Positions 36,489-41,217 of a stretch of 43,059 nucleotides of DNA are shown piece by piece. The notes under the pieces were generated by a model, which did not search any database, was not told where the DNA came from, and saw only the letters and a list, made by a program, of their open reading frames with translations. Source of the DNA: Oscillospiraceae bacterium (GTDB lineage Bacteria; Bacillota; Clostridia; Oscillospirales; Ruminococcaceae); NCBI GenBank assembly GCA_017545185.1, contig JAFWQJ010000044.1, positions 1 through 43,059 on the forward strand, in the 5' to 3' direction. Numbering within the stretch: the first letter of the stretch is position 1; each line of letters opens with the position of its first letter. Position numbers and translations under genes: made by a program.

Positions 36489-36527
36489 AAAGCCAAGCCG
36501 CTGAATGAACATCAGTGACTTGGCTTT
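36489..36527. terminator. Bidirectional terminator
   Basis: AAAGCCAAG (36489-36497) pairs with CTTGGCTTT (36519-36527). It lies between the convergent DUF4363 gene and the small membrane gene. Confidence 0.78.
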
Positions 36528-36549
36528 CTGTATTCGTGTTTTGCCGGAT

Positions 36550-36933
36550 TCAGTAGGATTCTGTGCGCGCAAGATAGGTGAATACGCCGTAGAATGCGGT
36601 TTCGACCAGCGGGATGAACACATTGCTCCCTGCCCGGATCGAGGACAGCAGCGAACCGATCATGATGAGCAGGCTGATCATACTGAGCCGCTTGCAGCGG
36701 TAGGGGTCGCTGTCCAGCCCCGCCTTGCCCGCGAAGATCGAGATCAGCCCGGCGGCAGCGGGGAATGCCAGAATGAGCGCCGCAATCAGCGTGATGCCGC
36801 CCTTCATCGTCTGATCCATACCGCTTGTCGCAAAGGATGCGATCAGAAAGATGATCAGGCAGGCCAGACAGTTCAGTCCGCCGATGACGATTGCAGCGAT
36901 GCAGCAGCCTTTGAAAATCTTGTAAGTATCCAT
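36550..36933 (-). CDS. Small four-helix membrane protein
   Basis: The 127-residue protein has four hydrophobic helices (about 11-34, 46-69, 82-98 and 104-120) with a short basic loop (DPYRCKR) after the second. The ATG at 36933 has AGGAGGT five bases upstream, and a full consensus promoter lies just behind it. It does not belong to a family I recognise. It is monocistronic and divergent from mnmA. Confidence 0.82.
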   Translation of the reverse strand: MDTYKIFKGCCIAAIVIGGLNCLACLIIFLIASFATSGMDQTMKGGITLIAALILAFPAAAGLISIFAGKAGLDSDPYRCKRLSMISLLIMIGSLLSSIRAGSNVFIPLVETAFYGVFTYLARTESY

Positions 36934-36962
36934 GATGTACCTCCTGATGTAAATTTTCTAAT

Positions 36963-36991
36963 ATTATACACGAAACTGCGGCAATTGTCAA
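36963..36991 (-). promoter_or_regulatory. Consensus promoter of the four-helix protein gene
   Basis: On the minus strand TTGACA (36986-36991) and TATAAT (36963-36968) with 17-bp spacing, back to back with the mnmA promoter. Confidence 0.9.
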
Positions 36992-37009
36992 GAGCCTGCG
37001 GCGATTTCA

Positions 37010-37038
37010 TTGACACGCGGGCATATCCGTGCTATAAT
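37010..37038 (+). promoter_or_regulatory. Consensus promoter of mnmA
   Basis: TTGACA (37010-37015) and TATAAT (37033-37038) with 17-bp spacing. Confidence 0.92.
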
Positions 37039-37086
37039 GGGGATTACGAAGAAAACCGGCATTTCGGCAACGATAACGGAGGAACT

Positions 37087-38193
37087 ATGAAAAAAGCATT
37101 GATCGCCATGAGCGGCGGCGTGGATTCCAGCGTCGCGGCCTATCTGACGATGCAGGCGGGCTATGACTGCATCGGCTGCACGATGCGGCTGCACGGGGAG
37201 AGCGGTCTGCCGGACGACACCGCGGATGCGCGCGCCGTCGCGGAGCGTCTGGGGATCCCGTTCCGCGTGTTTGACCTGACGGCGCTGTTCAAAGAAAAGG
37301 TCATCGGCAGCTTTGTGGACTGCTATCTCTGCGGCAAAACGCCGAACCCCTGCATCGAATGCAACCGGCATCTGAAATTTGCGAAGCTGCTGGAATTTGC
37401 CGCGGAGCTCGGCTGTGAGAAGCTCGTGACCGGCCATTATGCACAGGTCATTGAAACGCCGCAGGGCTTCCGGCTGAAGCGCGGCGCAGACCCCGGAAAG
37501 GATCAGAGCTACGTGCTTTATATGCTGACGGCGGAGCAGCTTTCTCATGTGCTGCTGCCGCTCGGCGGACTGACCAAGCCGGAGGTGCGCGCGATCGCGG
37601 AGGCGCAGGGCTTTGTCACGGCGCACAAGCAGGAATCGCAGGATATCTGCTTTGTGCCGGACGGCGACTATGCGCGCATTGTGGAGCGGGAAAGCGGCGT
37701 GAAGCCGGTGCCCGGTGATTTTGTCGATCTGCAGGGCCATGTGCTCGGGCAGCATCAGGGGCTGATCCATTATACGGTCGGGCAGCGGCGCGGTCTGGGC
37801 ATCGCGGTCGGGAAGCCTGCTTATGTCTGCGGACTGGATGTGCCGGGCAACCGCGTCGTGATCGGGGACAATGCCGATCTGTTTACCGATACCTGCAGAC
37901 TGGAGCGCATGAGCTGGACGGCGGGCGATCCCCCGAAAGAGCCCGTTCGCTGTACGGCGAAGATCCGCTACCGGCACCCGGCGCAGCCTGCTTTGCTGAC
38001 GTTCACCGGTACGGATACGGCAATTCTGCGGTTTGACGCGCCGCAGCGTGCGATCACCCCGGGGCAGGCGGCCGTCTGCTATGACGGAGACACTGTATTG
38101 GGCGGCGGGTCGATCGCGGGGCAGCCCCCGCTGGCGATTCCCTCCGGGAGCGATGAGCGAAGCTCGCCCAATAATCTGAACACACGCCGCTAA
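37087..38193 (+). CDS. mnmA: tRNA-specific 2-thiouridylase with repeat-derived C-terminus
   Basis: MnmA adds sulfur to wobble U34 of tRNAs for Lys, Glu and Gln. The 368-residue protein has the PP-loop MSGGVDSSVAA (residues 8-18), the catalytic cysteine motif TPNPCIECNRHLKF, the TGHYA segment, GKDQSYVLYML, the second catalytic Cys in QESQDICFVPDGDY, and TVGQRRGLG. The family normally ends soon after a CLGGGxI-type motif; here VLGGGSI ends at residue 343. The last roughly 24 residues (345-368, beginning GQPPLAIPSGSDERSS) are encoded by dispersed repeat copy C, which also provides the TAA stop inside its GCCGCTAAAGCGGC palindrome. The core is intact, so it is probably functional. The ATG at 37087 follows GGAGG. 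Confidence 0.95.
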   Translation: MKKALIAMSGGVDSSVAAYLTMQAGYDCIGCTMRLHGESGLPDDTADARAVAERLGIPFRVFDLTALFKEKVIGSFVDCYLCGKTPNPCIECNRHLKFAKLLEFAAELGCEKLVTGHYAQVIETPQGFRLKRGADPGKDQSYVLYMLTAEQLSHVLLPLGGLTKPEVRAIAEAQGFVTAHKQESQDICFVPDGDYARIVERESGVKPVPGDFVDLQGHVLGQHQGLIHYTVGQRRGLGIAVGKPAYVCGLDVPGNRVVIGDNADLFTDTCRLERMSWTAGDPPKEPVRCTAKIRYRHPAQPALLTFTGTDTAILRFDAPQRAITPGQAAVCYDGDTVLGGGSIAGQPPLAIPSGSDERSSPNNLNTRR

Positions 38194-38375: not shown

Positions 38376-38996
38376 ATGCAGAACCCGTGGGAGACGATCG
38401 CGCTCCCGGATTACGAAAACCACATGAAGCTGGATTCCGTCCGGCAGCTGCAGGCACTGAACCGCATGATGCAGGCGCAGCTTGCCGCTTATCCGGCGGA
38501 ATCCGTTATGATCCTCGGCATTGCGGGCGGAAACGGTCTGGAGCATATCCGGCCGGAACAGAAAACGGTGTATGCCGTTGATATCAACGGGGCGTATCTG
38601 CGCGCCGCGGCGGAGCGGTATCCGGCGCTTGCCGGCAGACTGCGCTGTCTGCAGCTTGACCTGATAACGGAGGCGGAGAAGCTTCCGCAGGCAGAGCTGC
38701 TGCTCGCCGACCTCCTGATCGAATATATCGGATACGGCGCATTTCAGCGCGCCGTTCAGCAGGCAGCGCCGGAATATGTCTCCTGCGTCATCCAGATCAA
38801 CGAAGATGCGGCGGAATGGGTTTCCGATTCTCCGTATCTCCATGTGTTTGACGGGCTGGATGCGGTGCATCATCTGATCGCGGAGCAGCCGCTGACGGAT
38901 GCCATGCGGGAGATCGGATATACCGGCACATTCCGGGGATCCGAAGCGCTGCCGAACGGAAAATCTCTGCTCCGGCTGGATTTTCAGAGACGCTGA
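38376..38996 (+). CDS. Putative class I SAM-dependent methyltransferase
   Basis: The 206-residue protein has a nucleotide-binding-like motif I (VMILGIAGGNGLEHI, about residues 42-56), an acidic strand end VYAVDIN (motif II) and LQLDLIT (motif III). This is the pattern of Rossmann-fold methyltransferases. The C-terminal half lacks recognisable substrate motifs, so the target is unknown. The ATG at 38376 lies nine bases after GGAG; an ATG at 38367 is too close to it. The stop codon lies inside the terminator stem. It is monocistronic. Confidence 0.75.
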   Translation: MQNPWETIALPDYENHMKLDSVRQLQALNRMMQAQLAAYPAESVMILGIAGGNGLEHIRPEQKTVYAVDINGAYLRAAAERYPALAGRLRCLQLDLITEAEKLPQAELLLADLLIEYIGYGAFQRAVQQAAPEYVSCVIQINEDAAEWVSDSPYLHVFDGLDAVHHLIAEQPLTDAMREIGYTGTFRGSEALPNGKSLLRLDFQRR

Positions 38997-39008
38997 AAAA
39001 ATTTTTTT
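38981..39008 (+). terminator. Terminator overlapping a stop codon
   Basis: TTTTCAG (38981-38987) pairs with CTGAAAA (38993-38999), followed by AATTTTTTT. The TGA of the methyltransferase gene is within the second arm. Confidence 0.8.
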
Positions 39009-39027
39009 CATGACAATATATTTTTTT

Positions 39028-39053
39028 GCAACCTCGCAGCGGCAAACGCTGTC
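39028..39053 (+). promoter_or_regulatory. ECF-type promoter of the sigma/PASTA operon
   Basis: GCAACC (39028-39033), preceded by a run of seven T, is followed after 16 bases by TGTC (39050-39053). This fits the (G/T)(G/C)AACC-N16-CGTC pattern of ECF sigma factors. A sigma-A reading (TTGCAA to CATAAT) would need a 21-bp spacer. It suggests autoregulation of the downstream sigma gene. Confidence 0.6.
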
Positions 39054-39088
39054 ATAATAGGCAGAGGAACATGAAAGGCGGTGAAACC

Positions 39089-39646
39089 GTGAATGATGAA
39101 AAGCTGATCGGATTGTTTGAAACCCGCAGTGAGCGGGGCATCGAGGAGGCGAACCGTGCGTACGGCGGCCTTTGCCGGTCGATTGCAATGCATATTCTTT
39201 CAGACAGCCGGGATGCAGAGGAATGCGTGAATGACGCGCTGCTGCATGTGTGGAATGCGATCCCGCCGCAGAAACCGCAGAAATTCTCCGCATTTTTTGC
39301 ATCAGTCACGCGCAATCTTGCACTGAACCGCTATGCGGCAAACCGCGCACAGCGGCGCGGCGGCGGACAGGTGCCGCTGGTGCTCGAGGAGCTTTCCGAG
39401 TGCATTTCCGCACCGGAGAGCACGGAGCAGGTGCTTGACCGCATGGCACTGCATGATACGCTGGAAGCGTTCCTCAAAAGTCTGCCTCCGAAGCACAGCA
39501 AGGTTTTTATGCGGCGGTATTTTTCCATGATGCCCGTCGCGGATATTGCCGCAGAGCTGAATATGCGTGAAAGCACAGTCAAGAGCATCCTGCGCAGGAC
39601 GAGAGCCAAGCTGCACGAACAACTTGAAAAGGAGGAGCTGCTATGA
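39089..39646 (+). CDS. ECF-family RNA polymerase sigma factor
   Basis: The 185-residue protein has sigma region 2 (about 25-85: YGGLCRSIAMHILSDSRDAEE, CVNDALLHVWNAIPP, FFASVTRNLALNRY) and region 4 (about 120-180: LKSLPPKHSKVFMRRYF, ADIAAELNMRESTVKSILRR). There is no region 3, as expected of ECF sigmas. The GTG at 39089 lies five bases after AAAGGCGGTG; the ATG at 39071 would place that ribosome site inside the gene. Its stop overlaps the start of the PASTA gene (ATGA), the usual sigma/anti-sigma arrangement, and an ECF-type promoter precedes it. Confidence 0.92.
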   Translation: MNDEKLIGLFETRSERGIEEANRAYGGLCRSIAMHILSDSRDAEECVNDALLHVWNAIPPQKPQKFSAFFASVTRNLALNRYAANRAQRRGGGQVPLVLEELSECISAPESTEQVLDRMALHDTLEAFLKSLPPKHSKVFMRRYFSMMPVADIAAELNMRESTVKSILRRTRAKLHEQLEKEELL

Positions 39647-41166
39647 AAGAACAGGATCTGCTGGAGGAGATCGGCAAGGTCTCCGAGGAGCTGATCGCGG
39701 CACACGCGCTGCCGGACGCAAAGCGGTACGGTGAGGGCGGTGCTGAACAGTCAGTCACTGCAAAGGAGCAAATTGTCATGAGCGAAAAGAAAACTGAATA
39801 TATCAAGAATCCGTTTATTCGCGCCCTGCCCGCGATCGCGGCTGCGGCGGCGGTGCTGGTCGCAGGCGTCATCATCCTGCCGAAAACCGGTCTGATGCGG
39901 ACACCGGCAACAAGCGTCGATTCCGAGGTCGAGACATCCGAGATCACCGAAACATCCGATTTCCGGCTGAAAATCAGCAAAGCGTGGATGAATGTCATTC
40001 CGGGGGCAGAGCTGGAGCATTCCGGCAATCTGGATGTGACGGCAGAGCTGGAATATGCCGGACAAGATGCCGCACCGACGGTCTGGTACGGCGGCTTCAC
40101 GCTGGAAAAAAACGGCAAACTTCTGTACGAAAATGTGGCTGACGGCGTGCAGCCGGAGCATTTTGAGAATCCGGCGGCTGAACCGGCAGAGAACGGTGCC
40201 GTGATCTATGACAAAGAGCCGGAGCCGCTTCCGGTCGCGTATTCCGCACAGGGCGCAGTTCCGCTTTCGATCCTTGCACCGGATCTGGATGCACACTGGA
40301 TTCAGAATGAGCCCGGTGATCTGATGCTGACAGTCTACTGCAGAGTCGGTTCCCCGGCTGCGGAGCCGATCACGGTCACTGCACCGGTCACAGATTATGA
40401 GGTCAGGGATTTTGAACCGACAGTGGCACTTCCGGATCTCAATAACTGGACGTATTACGATGCAAAGCAGCTGATCCAGGAGGCGGGGCTCTTAGTGGAC
40501 AAGCGCAGCGCATACAGCGATGAGATCCCGGAGGGACATGTCATCTCGACCGATCCGGAGCTGCCAGCCGAACTGGCCCCCGGCACGTATGTCCGCGTGA
40601 TCGTTTCCCTCGGATCAGGTCACAACATCATTCCTGTTCCGAACTTTACCGGCATGGACTGGGAGCTTGCCAAAACCATGGCAGACGGCATGGGGCTGAT
40701 CCTCGGAAAGAATCCGGTTCCGTCATCTGAACCGGAAGGCACGGTGCTGGCGCAGAGCATCGAAGTCGGTACGGAAGTCGCGGAGGACACCGTCATTGAC
40801 CTGGAGGTTTCCACGGGCAGCGAACAAAGCGAATTCCAGATCCGTACTTTCCGGATCCCGTTCCAGATCCCGACGGGCGTAACCGGCCAGTTCCATATCG
40901 AGCTTTACAAGGATGGCGAATGCGTCGAAACGGGCAGCAGCTTCGATCCGGAATATGCCGCCGGCACGACCTCGGTGGCTGTGACCGTTGAAAATGTCGC
41001 CGATGTGATCGCGTATCTGGTGAATGACAAAACCAGTGCAAAAGCGGAGATCGGAATCTGTCATCTTGATGCTTGGGACGGGAGTTTCTCCTTTGATAAA
41101 GAAATCAATATGGAGGAAGTGTTCCGGCAGGTCACGGAGACCGGCACATCTTCAGCGGATCAGTAA
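39643..41166 (+). CDS. PASTA-domain membrane protein, candidate anti-sigma factor
   Basis: The 507-residue protein has a cytoplasmic N-terminus (about 1-60) beginning KEQDLLEEIGKVSEELI, similar in style to short anti-sigma regions of clostridial ECF partners. One membrane helix follows (about 61-80). Then come an extracellular beta-rich region (about 85-260), two PASTA domains (about 262-327 and 328-393; DAKQLIQEAGL and ELAKTMADGMGLILG lines), and a C-terminal beta-rich region (394-507). PASTA domains in PknB-type kinases and PBPs sense peptidoglycan fragments or beta-lactams. No kinase domain is present. ATGA overlap with the ECF sigma suggests it holds or releases that sigma in response to a wall signal. 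The anti-sigma role is inferred. Confidence 0.78.
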   Translation: MKEQDLLEEIGKVSEELIAAHALPDAKRYGEGGAEQSVTAKEQIVMSEKKTEYIKNPFIRALPAIAAAAAVLVAGVIILPKTGLMRTPATSVDSEVETSEITETSDFRLKISKAWMNVIPGAELEHSGNLDVTAELEYAGQDAAPTVWYGGFTLEKNGKLLYENVADGVQPEHFENPAAEPAENGAVIYDKEPEPLPVAYSAQGAVPLSILAPDLDAHWIQNEPGDLMLTVYCRVGSPAAEPITVTAPVTDYEVRDFEPTVALPDLNNWTYYDAKQLIQEAGLLVDKRSAYSDEIPEGHVISTDPELPAELAPGTYVRVIVSLGSGHNIIPVPNFTGMDWELAKTMADGMGLILGKNPVPSSEPEGTVLAQSIEVGTEVAEDTVIDLEVSTGSEQSEFQIRTFRIPFQIPTGVTGQFHIELYKDGECVETGSSFDPEYAAGTTSVAVTVENVADVIAYLVNDKTSAKAEIGICHLDAWDGSFSFDKEINMEEVFRQVTETGTSSADQ

Positions 41167-41185: not shown

Positions 41186-41217
41186 CCCTGCCCGTTCGCG
41201 GGCGGGGCTTGCTTTTT
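41186..41217 (+). terminator. Strong terminator after the PASTA gene
   Basis: A 9-bp stem CCCTGCCCG/CGGGCGGGG with a TTCG loop is followed by CTTGCTTTTTT. It overlaps the -35 of the next promoter. Confidence 0.9.

Follow-up and report, generated by a model that had tools for sequence, protein, structure and literature searches.

An ECF sigma factor and a membrane protein with two PASTA domains, encoded by overlapping genes in a stretch of clostridial DNA of 43,059 nucleotides (the window), likely make up an autoregulated sigma/anti-sigma operon, in which the sensor derives from a PASTA kinase and responds to the ligand of that kinase. The 3.6-Mb genome to which the window belongs, as contig C41, comes in 94 contigs, is 95% complete and has G021 as its closest relative among the genomes searched. 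The ligands and the outputs of PASTA kinases are still debated, and a sigma factor coupled to a sensor akin to theirs would be a simple transcriptional reporter for the input of the kinase sensor. Conversion-like copying between the sensors of kinase and anti-sigma factor would, if true, be a natural experiment on sensor swapping, and the short N-terminal peptide of the partner protein suggests a route by which clostridia assemble dozens of ECF switches with exchangeable inputs.

The operon, its promoter and the partner protein

The sigma factor has both a sigma2 and a sigma4 region (Pfam Sigma70_r2, 46 bits, and r4_2, 44 bits), which is the composition of an ECF (group 4) factor. It matches NCBIfam TIGR02937 with 89 bits and is distantly related to SigL of solved structure (6dv9_F, E 1.9e-9). 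The start at 39028 that was given in the first-pass annotation belongs to the -35 element of the promoter and not to a gene, since the sigma gene begins with the GTG at 39089. The translational coupling proposed there is borne out by the ATGA that is shared between the sigma stop, ending at 39646, and the partner start at 39643, and the partner gene also has an AGGAGG of its own at 39630-39635. Because a strong terminator-like site follows at 41186, the two genes look like a two-gene operon (Table 1), and because the pair is kept in relatives, the arrangement is not a matter of chance.

Table 1. Features of the sigma/partner locus, in positions of the window
Feature	Position	Strand	Remarks
ECF-type promoter	39027..39057	+	-35 TGCAACC 39027-39033, N16, -10 TGTCATAA 39050-39057
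ECF sigma factor, 185 aa	39089..39646	+	GTG start; Pfam and NCBIfam matches
Putative membrane anti-sigma factor, 507 aa	39643..41166	+	ATG start; ATGA overlap with the sigma gene
Proposed sigma-binding peptide, residues 1-26 (MKEQDLLEEIGKVSEELIAAHALPDA)	39643..39720	+	Tracks the sigma factor; conserved in orthologs
Transmembrane segment, single, about aa 61-79	39823..39879	+	Hydropathy 2.63
Extracellular segment before PASTA, about aa 85-258	39895..40416	+	About 170 aa, without family match
PASTA domain 1, counterpart of kinase PASTA 2	40423..40608	+	Pfam 50 bits
PASTA domain 2, counterpart of kinase PASTA 3	40633..40815	+	Pfam 50 bits
C-terminal domain, about 110 aa (about aa 395-503)	40825..41151	+	Aligns with the C-terminus of the PrkC-type kinases of the genus
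Intrinsic terminator	41186..41217	+	9-pair stem, 8 GC, then T tract

The promoter ahead of the operon had likewise been called ECF-type, and as a sequence it deserves the name: it is kept across orthologs, and matches to its strict pattern lie mostly before ECF genes. Its -35 element holds the AAC triad that is described as an ECF feature in PMC6056542. When the upstream regions of 18 orthologous sigma genes are compared (10 with the window included, plus 8; G001 has no upstream sequence in the first, 10-gene comparison), the -35 element reads TGCAACC in 12 cases, TGCACA in 4, and CGCAACC and TGCACC in one each. All 18 precede a -10 element of the TGTC or TGTT type, and the DNA farther upstream diverges. 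The strict pattern, with a gap of 14-17, has a single match in the window's genome and 8 matches over the 19 genomes searched, while the reversed pattern, which serves as control, has none in the same 19 genomes. Seven of the 8 precede ECF genes, 5 of them at this operon and 2 at a related sigma factor (G005 and G023). The eighth lies ahead of a gene for a predicted lipoprotein (L147, G017:C49:4226-4256), which the site makes a possible member of the regulon.

In the window's genome TG.AAC-N16-18-GTC precedes 8 of the 54 ECF genes that overlap their partners, where shuffling gives a mean of 0.39, and a scan for sigma-70-type promoters gives no site at 39027-39057 and only a weak one at 38993-39022. 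The conserved ECF-type promoter suggests that the sigma operon may be autoregulated. A regulon search with at most 2 mismatches in 13 genomes gives, with both strands counted together, 4-17 sites per genome versus 2-8 for the reversed pattern, and no targets are named because these counts are too near the background.

As annotated at first pass, the partner is a single-pass protein with two PASTA domains and without a kinase: it has one hydrophobic segment, and the PASTA domains, which together score 92 bits, are all that Pfam lists at E<=1, so that the partner does not qualify as a PASTA Ser/Thr kinase. Its match to NF033483, a model of PASTA kinases with a cut-off of 450 bits, is confined to the ectodomain and amounts to 69.6 bits, and the solved structures that match it are chains of PASTA kinases only (7 sequences, E<=0.01). 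That annotation omitted two parts of the ectodomain, namely the C-terminal domain and the segment that leads from the membrane to the first PASTA domain. The latter, which has no Pfam match at E<=1, is almost identical in the sister species and unlike in most other aligned orthologs. With a gene that overlaps the sigma gene from downstream, a cytoplasmic N-terminus, a membrane segment and an outer sensor, the protein has the layout of a membrane anti-sigma factor, the topology being predicted from hydropathy. No recognised anti-sigma domain is found in it with Pfam or NCBIfam. Anti-sigma factors of the ZAS class carry the motif HxxxCxxC in their cytoplasmic part, and the partner falls outside this class with 0 cysteines in residues 1-60. 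It falls outside the RsgI type as well, with PASTA as its only Pfam family at E<=1 and with both r2 and r4 in its sigma factor.

A short peptide that follows the sigma factor

The set of ECF factors in the window's genome is large: there are 69 ECF matches, of which one was left out as having no locus, and the 68 readable ORFs occur in 3.6 Mb. A first look with the sigma factor as query gives 61 candidates here versus 6-25 in several 2-Mb genomes of the genus. Downstream of 54 of the 68 ORFs lies an overlapping partner whose membrane segment starts within the first 130 aa; the overlap is exactly four bases in 39 cases, and a second membrane segment is rare among the partners. Of 356 related ECF loci in other genomes the 80 best were compared, and 75 of them overlap their partner, 65 of these by exactly four bases; PASTA is found at nine of the best 80 (L173-L181), which are those with the nine nearest sigma factors.

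Five ECF partners in the window's genome have PASTA domains, i.e., the one in the window and those on C46, C23, C69 and C62, and the other PASTA proteins of this genome are encoded on C36 (the PrkC-type kinase), C73 (a penicillin-binding protein) and C14 (a kinase-like protein). The four further ECF-linked PASTA proteins (L102:464-1798, L103:2687-4585, L069:2721-4367 and L074:2799-4502) have an early membrane segment; the one at L103 is a 33% match to the window protein, C-terminal domain included, and those at L069 and L074 have linkers rich in Thr and Ala.

Consider now how the parts of a partner vary with its sigma factor. In Mantel tests, the similarity between sigma factors was correlated with the similarity between the corresponding parts of their partners, both in 35 paralogous pairs from the window's genome and in 100 pairs from this and other genomes (4 of 39 and 4 of 104 pairs, respectively, were dropped for a zinc-type N-terminus or an unclear membrane segment). 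Residues 1-26 of the partner follow the sigma factor closely, with r 0.617 (p 0.0005) for the 35 and r 0.523 (p 0.001) for the 100 pairs, and the ectodomain does not, with r 0.05 (p 0.28) and r 0.07 (p 0.068). In the 35 own paralogs the remaining cytoplasmic part shows no correlation (r -0.02, p 0.63), and that of the membrane segment is weak (r 0.13, p 0.04). From this follows that some 26 N-terminal residues travel with the sigma factor and that the outside is exchangeable, which suggests that a short anti-sigma peptide may be joined to swappable sensors. The cytoplasmic part had been taken at first pass as the likely element for sigma binding; that it is a short part stands, and the Mantel tests narrow the proposed residues 1-60 to about 1-26. 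One pair of residues, K130 in the sigma factor and L17 in the N-terminal peptide, is the sole pair to covary above the maximum of 20 shuffles, and is noted as a lead.

In 30 genomes of the genus, the sigma factor is found at E<=1e-60 in 19 copies, distributed over 18 genomes. Fourteen copies in 13 genomes have PASTA partners (the one in G019 is a short ORF of 234 aa), four have partners with other ectodomains, and the copy in G018 has a weak match to the kinase ectodomain of 16.7 bits. The orthologs in G022, G005, G043 and G023 (L291-L294) share the promoter type and have a similar N-terminal peptide, and their partners of 670-900 aa have an ectodomain without a match to that of the kinase; here the switch appears to have stayed while the sensor differs. 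Among the PASTA proteins that were fetched from matches, there are 22 distinct loci with an ECF-type ORF directly upstream of the PASTA ORF, and the PASTA proteins without such a neighbour either are kinases or have a zinc-ribbon-like N-terminus, the latter being seven in number (L115, L124 and L129-L133). Among the fetched proteins, those of the present architecture are thus not widespread apart from a sigma gene, which is the observation that, according to the first-pass annotation, would have spoken against a sensor pair.

Kinship with the PASTA kinase of the same genome

Residues 261-500 of the partner are, over 240 aa, 57% identical to PASTA 2, PASTA 3 and the C-terminus of the genome's own PrkC/Stk1-type kinase on C36, a relation that went unnoticed at first pass, as did the dozens of ECF/partner pairs in the genome. 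For 7 of the 9 anti-sigma factors with their own kinase in the set, the own kinase ranks first of 16 by identity. When the comparison is made domain by domain with 28-29 kinases, the picture is a mosaic, and the own kinase is frequently not the nearest. The kinase ectodomain also occurs in a predicted lipoprotein (L299, G043:C48) and in a zinc-ribbon protein (L115, G023:C42), both of which have the own kinase as nearest relative with support of 100/99 and 98/90, respectively.

In a tree without G041 and G044, the sigma orthologs (11 genomes) come together in a single clade with support of 96/93. The anti-sigma ectodomains do not form one clade: their monophyly is rejected in AU tests both for 10 anti-sigma factors versus 24 kinases (p 2.7e-9) and in a larger set of 13 versus 29 (p 2.5e-10), where the groups are without G004b, which is of another sigma lineage, and G023x, and in the larger set also without G043y, both of which have no sigma factor. 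These tests reject one old capture with vertical descent thereafter; they share the weakness of the tree model toward long branches, and several anti-sigma rows are long.

In a tree with 36 rows, the anti-sigma ectodomain stands beside that of the own kinase in G003 (97/90), G002 (100/99), G008 (97/97) and G004 (99/97). In a tree with 45 rows, the same holds for G003 (98/88), G008 (98/94) and G002 (100/99) and weakly for G001 (92/62), whose kinase is truncated by a contig end, but G004a now pairs with G041a (91/97). The short G019a is absent from both trees, and the short G018a is absent from the 45-row tree, as are G022a, G005a, G043a and G023a, which have no ectodomain match; G004b, in both trees, and G044a, in the larger one, are entered with only part of the ectodomain.

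Third codon positions were tested codon by codon for clustering of matches to the own kinase in 17 rows, with a p floor of 0.0005, and such clustering is seen in 4 rows and is not significant in 13. In G003a, the tract spans codons 7-62, i.e., the first PASTA domain, with 92% DNA identity to the own kinase (p 0.0005). In G002a, it spans codons 140-231 in the C-terminal domain, with 94% identity (p 0.0005), and in the zinc-ribbon protein G023x codons 61-139, with 90% identity (p 0.0005). The tract in G041a (codons 2-63, first PASTA domain) has 82% identity and a p value of 0.006, which is not significant after correction for 17 tests. The best other kinases reach 69-77% in the tracts of G003a, G002a and G041a, and the own kinase is within the tract identical to the best other kinase by 74% in G003, 73% in G002, 77% in G041 and 78% for G023x.

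Such tracts, in three anti-sigma factors other than the window's, are what gene conversion would leave, and the first PASTA domain and the C-terminal domain seem to have been exchanged as units. The G003 kinase lies at a normal distance from other kinases within the tract, which fits copying from the kinase to the anti-sigma factor. In several relatives it thus looks as if the ectodomain has been re-copied from the kinase of the same genome. Functional convergence of the ectodomains is rejected for the genomes with tracts, since third codon positions also match locally. In the window's own gene a recent conversion tract is not seen (p 0.56). The ectodomain is common to this gene and its G021 counterpart (81% identity) and branches beside the kinases of both species (82/68), and its capture is older than the split from the sister species.

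The kinase gene prkC belongs to an operon with def, fmt, rsmB, rlmN and prpC that is located after priA and headed by a promoter-like element (L253:4339-4369; G000:C36:21338-21368) which resembles the promoter of the sigma factor. A site like TGCA.CC-N16-TGTTATAAT is found with 1-2 mismatches at the head of this operon in G000, G021, G003 and G004, with 3 mismatches at the operon heads of G024 and G019, and in G008 before fmt. With at most 3 mismatches it is absent in the stretches of G016, G005, G023, G009, G015 and G014, and the stretches of G020, G012 and G002, which have no site, do not reach the operon head. The element is accordingly present in several genomes that have a PASTA pair, and none was seen in the six genomes that lack the pair. 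The kinase operon is not claimed as a target of the sigma factor, because the -10 element suits the housekeeping sigma factor well as an extended -10, because in the window's own genome the site lacks the AAC triad, and because G005 and G023 have the orthologous sigma factor, with a non-PASTA partner, and lack the site.

Mechanism, rival readings and known systems

In the proposed mechanism, the first 26 or so residues of the partner would hold the sigma factor at the membrane, and one transmembrane helix would connect this peptide to an ectodomain of two PASTA domains and the C-terminal domain. The ectodomain would be of common origin with that of the own PrkC/Stk1-type kinase and in relatives apparently re-copied from it by gene conversion. 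The signal would be a change in the ligand of the kinase, which for the kinases that have been studied is lipid II or peptidoglycan fragments. Peptidoglycan or lipid II are ligands of PASTA regions in kinases (PMC5786024, PMC6428115), so that the kinase's own ligand is the likely input, and a beta-lactam is less likely as natural ligand than peptidoglycan material (PMC4601284). The anti-sigma factor would then release the sigma factor, most likely through intramembrane proteolysis, and the freed sigma factor would transcribe the operon that encodes it along with other targets. The genome has a site-2 protease gene (Peptidase_M50, 3 matches, the best with 204 bits at G000:C73), but as this is true for 14 of 14 control genomes too, it is no special evidence.

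A further-reaching reading of why the two sensors are alike, which is put forward tentatively and with clearly less than even confidence, is that the sigma factor is a transcriptional arm of the PASTA kinase. Recurrent conversion would match both sensors to one changing wall ligand, kinase and sigma factor would read the same signal or co-assemble through near-identical ectodomains, and the anti-sigma element would be no more than the N-terminal peptide of some 26 residues, which roughly 100 clostridial pairs in the comparison, and probably many others, have in common. Conversion between similar repeats can occur without selection, which counts against the mechanism proposed above. The likeness within a genome could then be a neutral by-product of recombination that is uninformative about ligand and function, with an ectodomain that may only tether the protein to the wall. 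The tracts are indeed local and unlike between genomes, and the lipoprotein in G043 and the zinc-ribbon protein in G023 also have copies nearest to the own kinase. Such neutrality is nevertheless rather unlikely, for PASTA is retained over large divergence (in 14 pairs from 13 genomes, the short ORF in G019 being one of them), and the same sigma factor has other large ectodomains elsewhere, which is more in keeping with a sensor slot than with a tether.

Less probable still is that the anti-sigma ectodomain meets the kinase itself in a cluster or heterodimer, and that PrkC frees the sigma factor by phosphorylating the cytoplasmic part of its partner. An ectodomain that is related to that of the kinase, and in several relatives most like that of the own kinase, is what such contact would lead one to expect, and phosphorylation of anti-sigma factors by PknB is described for mycobacteria (PMC8999054, PMC4601284); however, the cytoplasmic part beyond residue 26 is highly variable and does not track the sigma factor. 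It is very improbable, finally, that the partner is an activator or a merely co-expressed protein. The absence of a recognised anti-sigma domain leaves some room for this, the anti-sigma role being read from the sequence, but overlapping partners with an early membrane segment accompany most ECF ORFs both here and among the best-matching loci elsewhere, the N-terminus of the partner covaries with the sigma factor, and an anti-sigma gene in operon with an ECF sigma gene is the usual arrangement (PMC6056542).

With the partner taken as an anti-sigma factor with a kinase-derived sensor, the pieces at the locus fit a plan described for clostridial and Bacillus systems, where an outer sensor is connected by a membrane helix to an inner domain that holds the sigma factor, and stepwise proteolysis releases it (PMC6056542, PMC5014341). 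In SigV/RsiV, an ECF sigma factor is likewise paired with a membrane anti-sigma factor whose ectodomain binds the ligand directly; RsiV is a receptor for lysozyme, and release occurs by regulated intramembrane proteolysis (PMC5014341, PMC9044953). The ectodomain there is another one, whereas the one here combines a PASTA pair with a C-terminal domain, in common with the kinase, and release would be by analogy. SigI/RsgI of cellulolytic clostridia resemble the present pairs in having many paralogous operons per genome, and RsgI in combining a sensory module outside, a membrane part and a domain inside that holds the sigma factor (PMC6056542), with nine factors for different substrates (PMC12203970). 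They differ in that SigI is described with a sigma2 domain only (PMC6056542) and in that the partner here has no RsgI match in Pfam at E<=1; PASTA is absent from the text of PMC6056542.

The PrkC/Stk1/PknB kinases, a group reported as highly conserved in Gram-positives (PMC4478028), have the homologous ectodomain of PASTA 2, PASTA 3 and C-terminal domain, but the partner has, in place of a kinase domain, a short cytoplasmic peptide and an adjoining sigma gene. A wall-related signal is led into an ECF sigma factor also by SigP/RsiP and PbpP of Bacillus thuringiensis (PMC8092216), where, however, the beta-lactam sensor is a penicillin-binding protein, while here the anti-sigma factor itself has a domain of wall-binding type. 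In the accessible literature on PASTA together with anti-sigma factors or gene conversion, from which subscription journals are mostly absent, so that an earlier mention is possible, no PASTA anti-sigma factor is found. A minor observation concerns the neighbourhood upstream of the operon, where an MnmA-type ORF (tRNA_Me_trans, 36505-38193, + strand) has about 190 additional residues N-terminal of its domain, and its real start probably lies further in.
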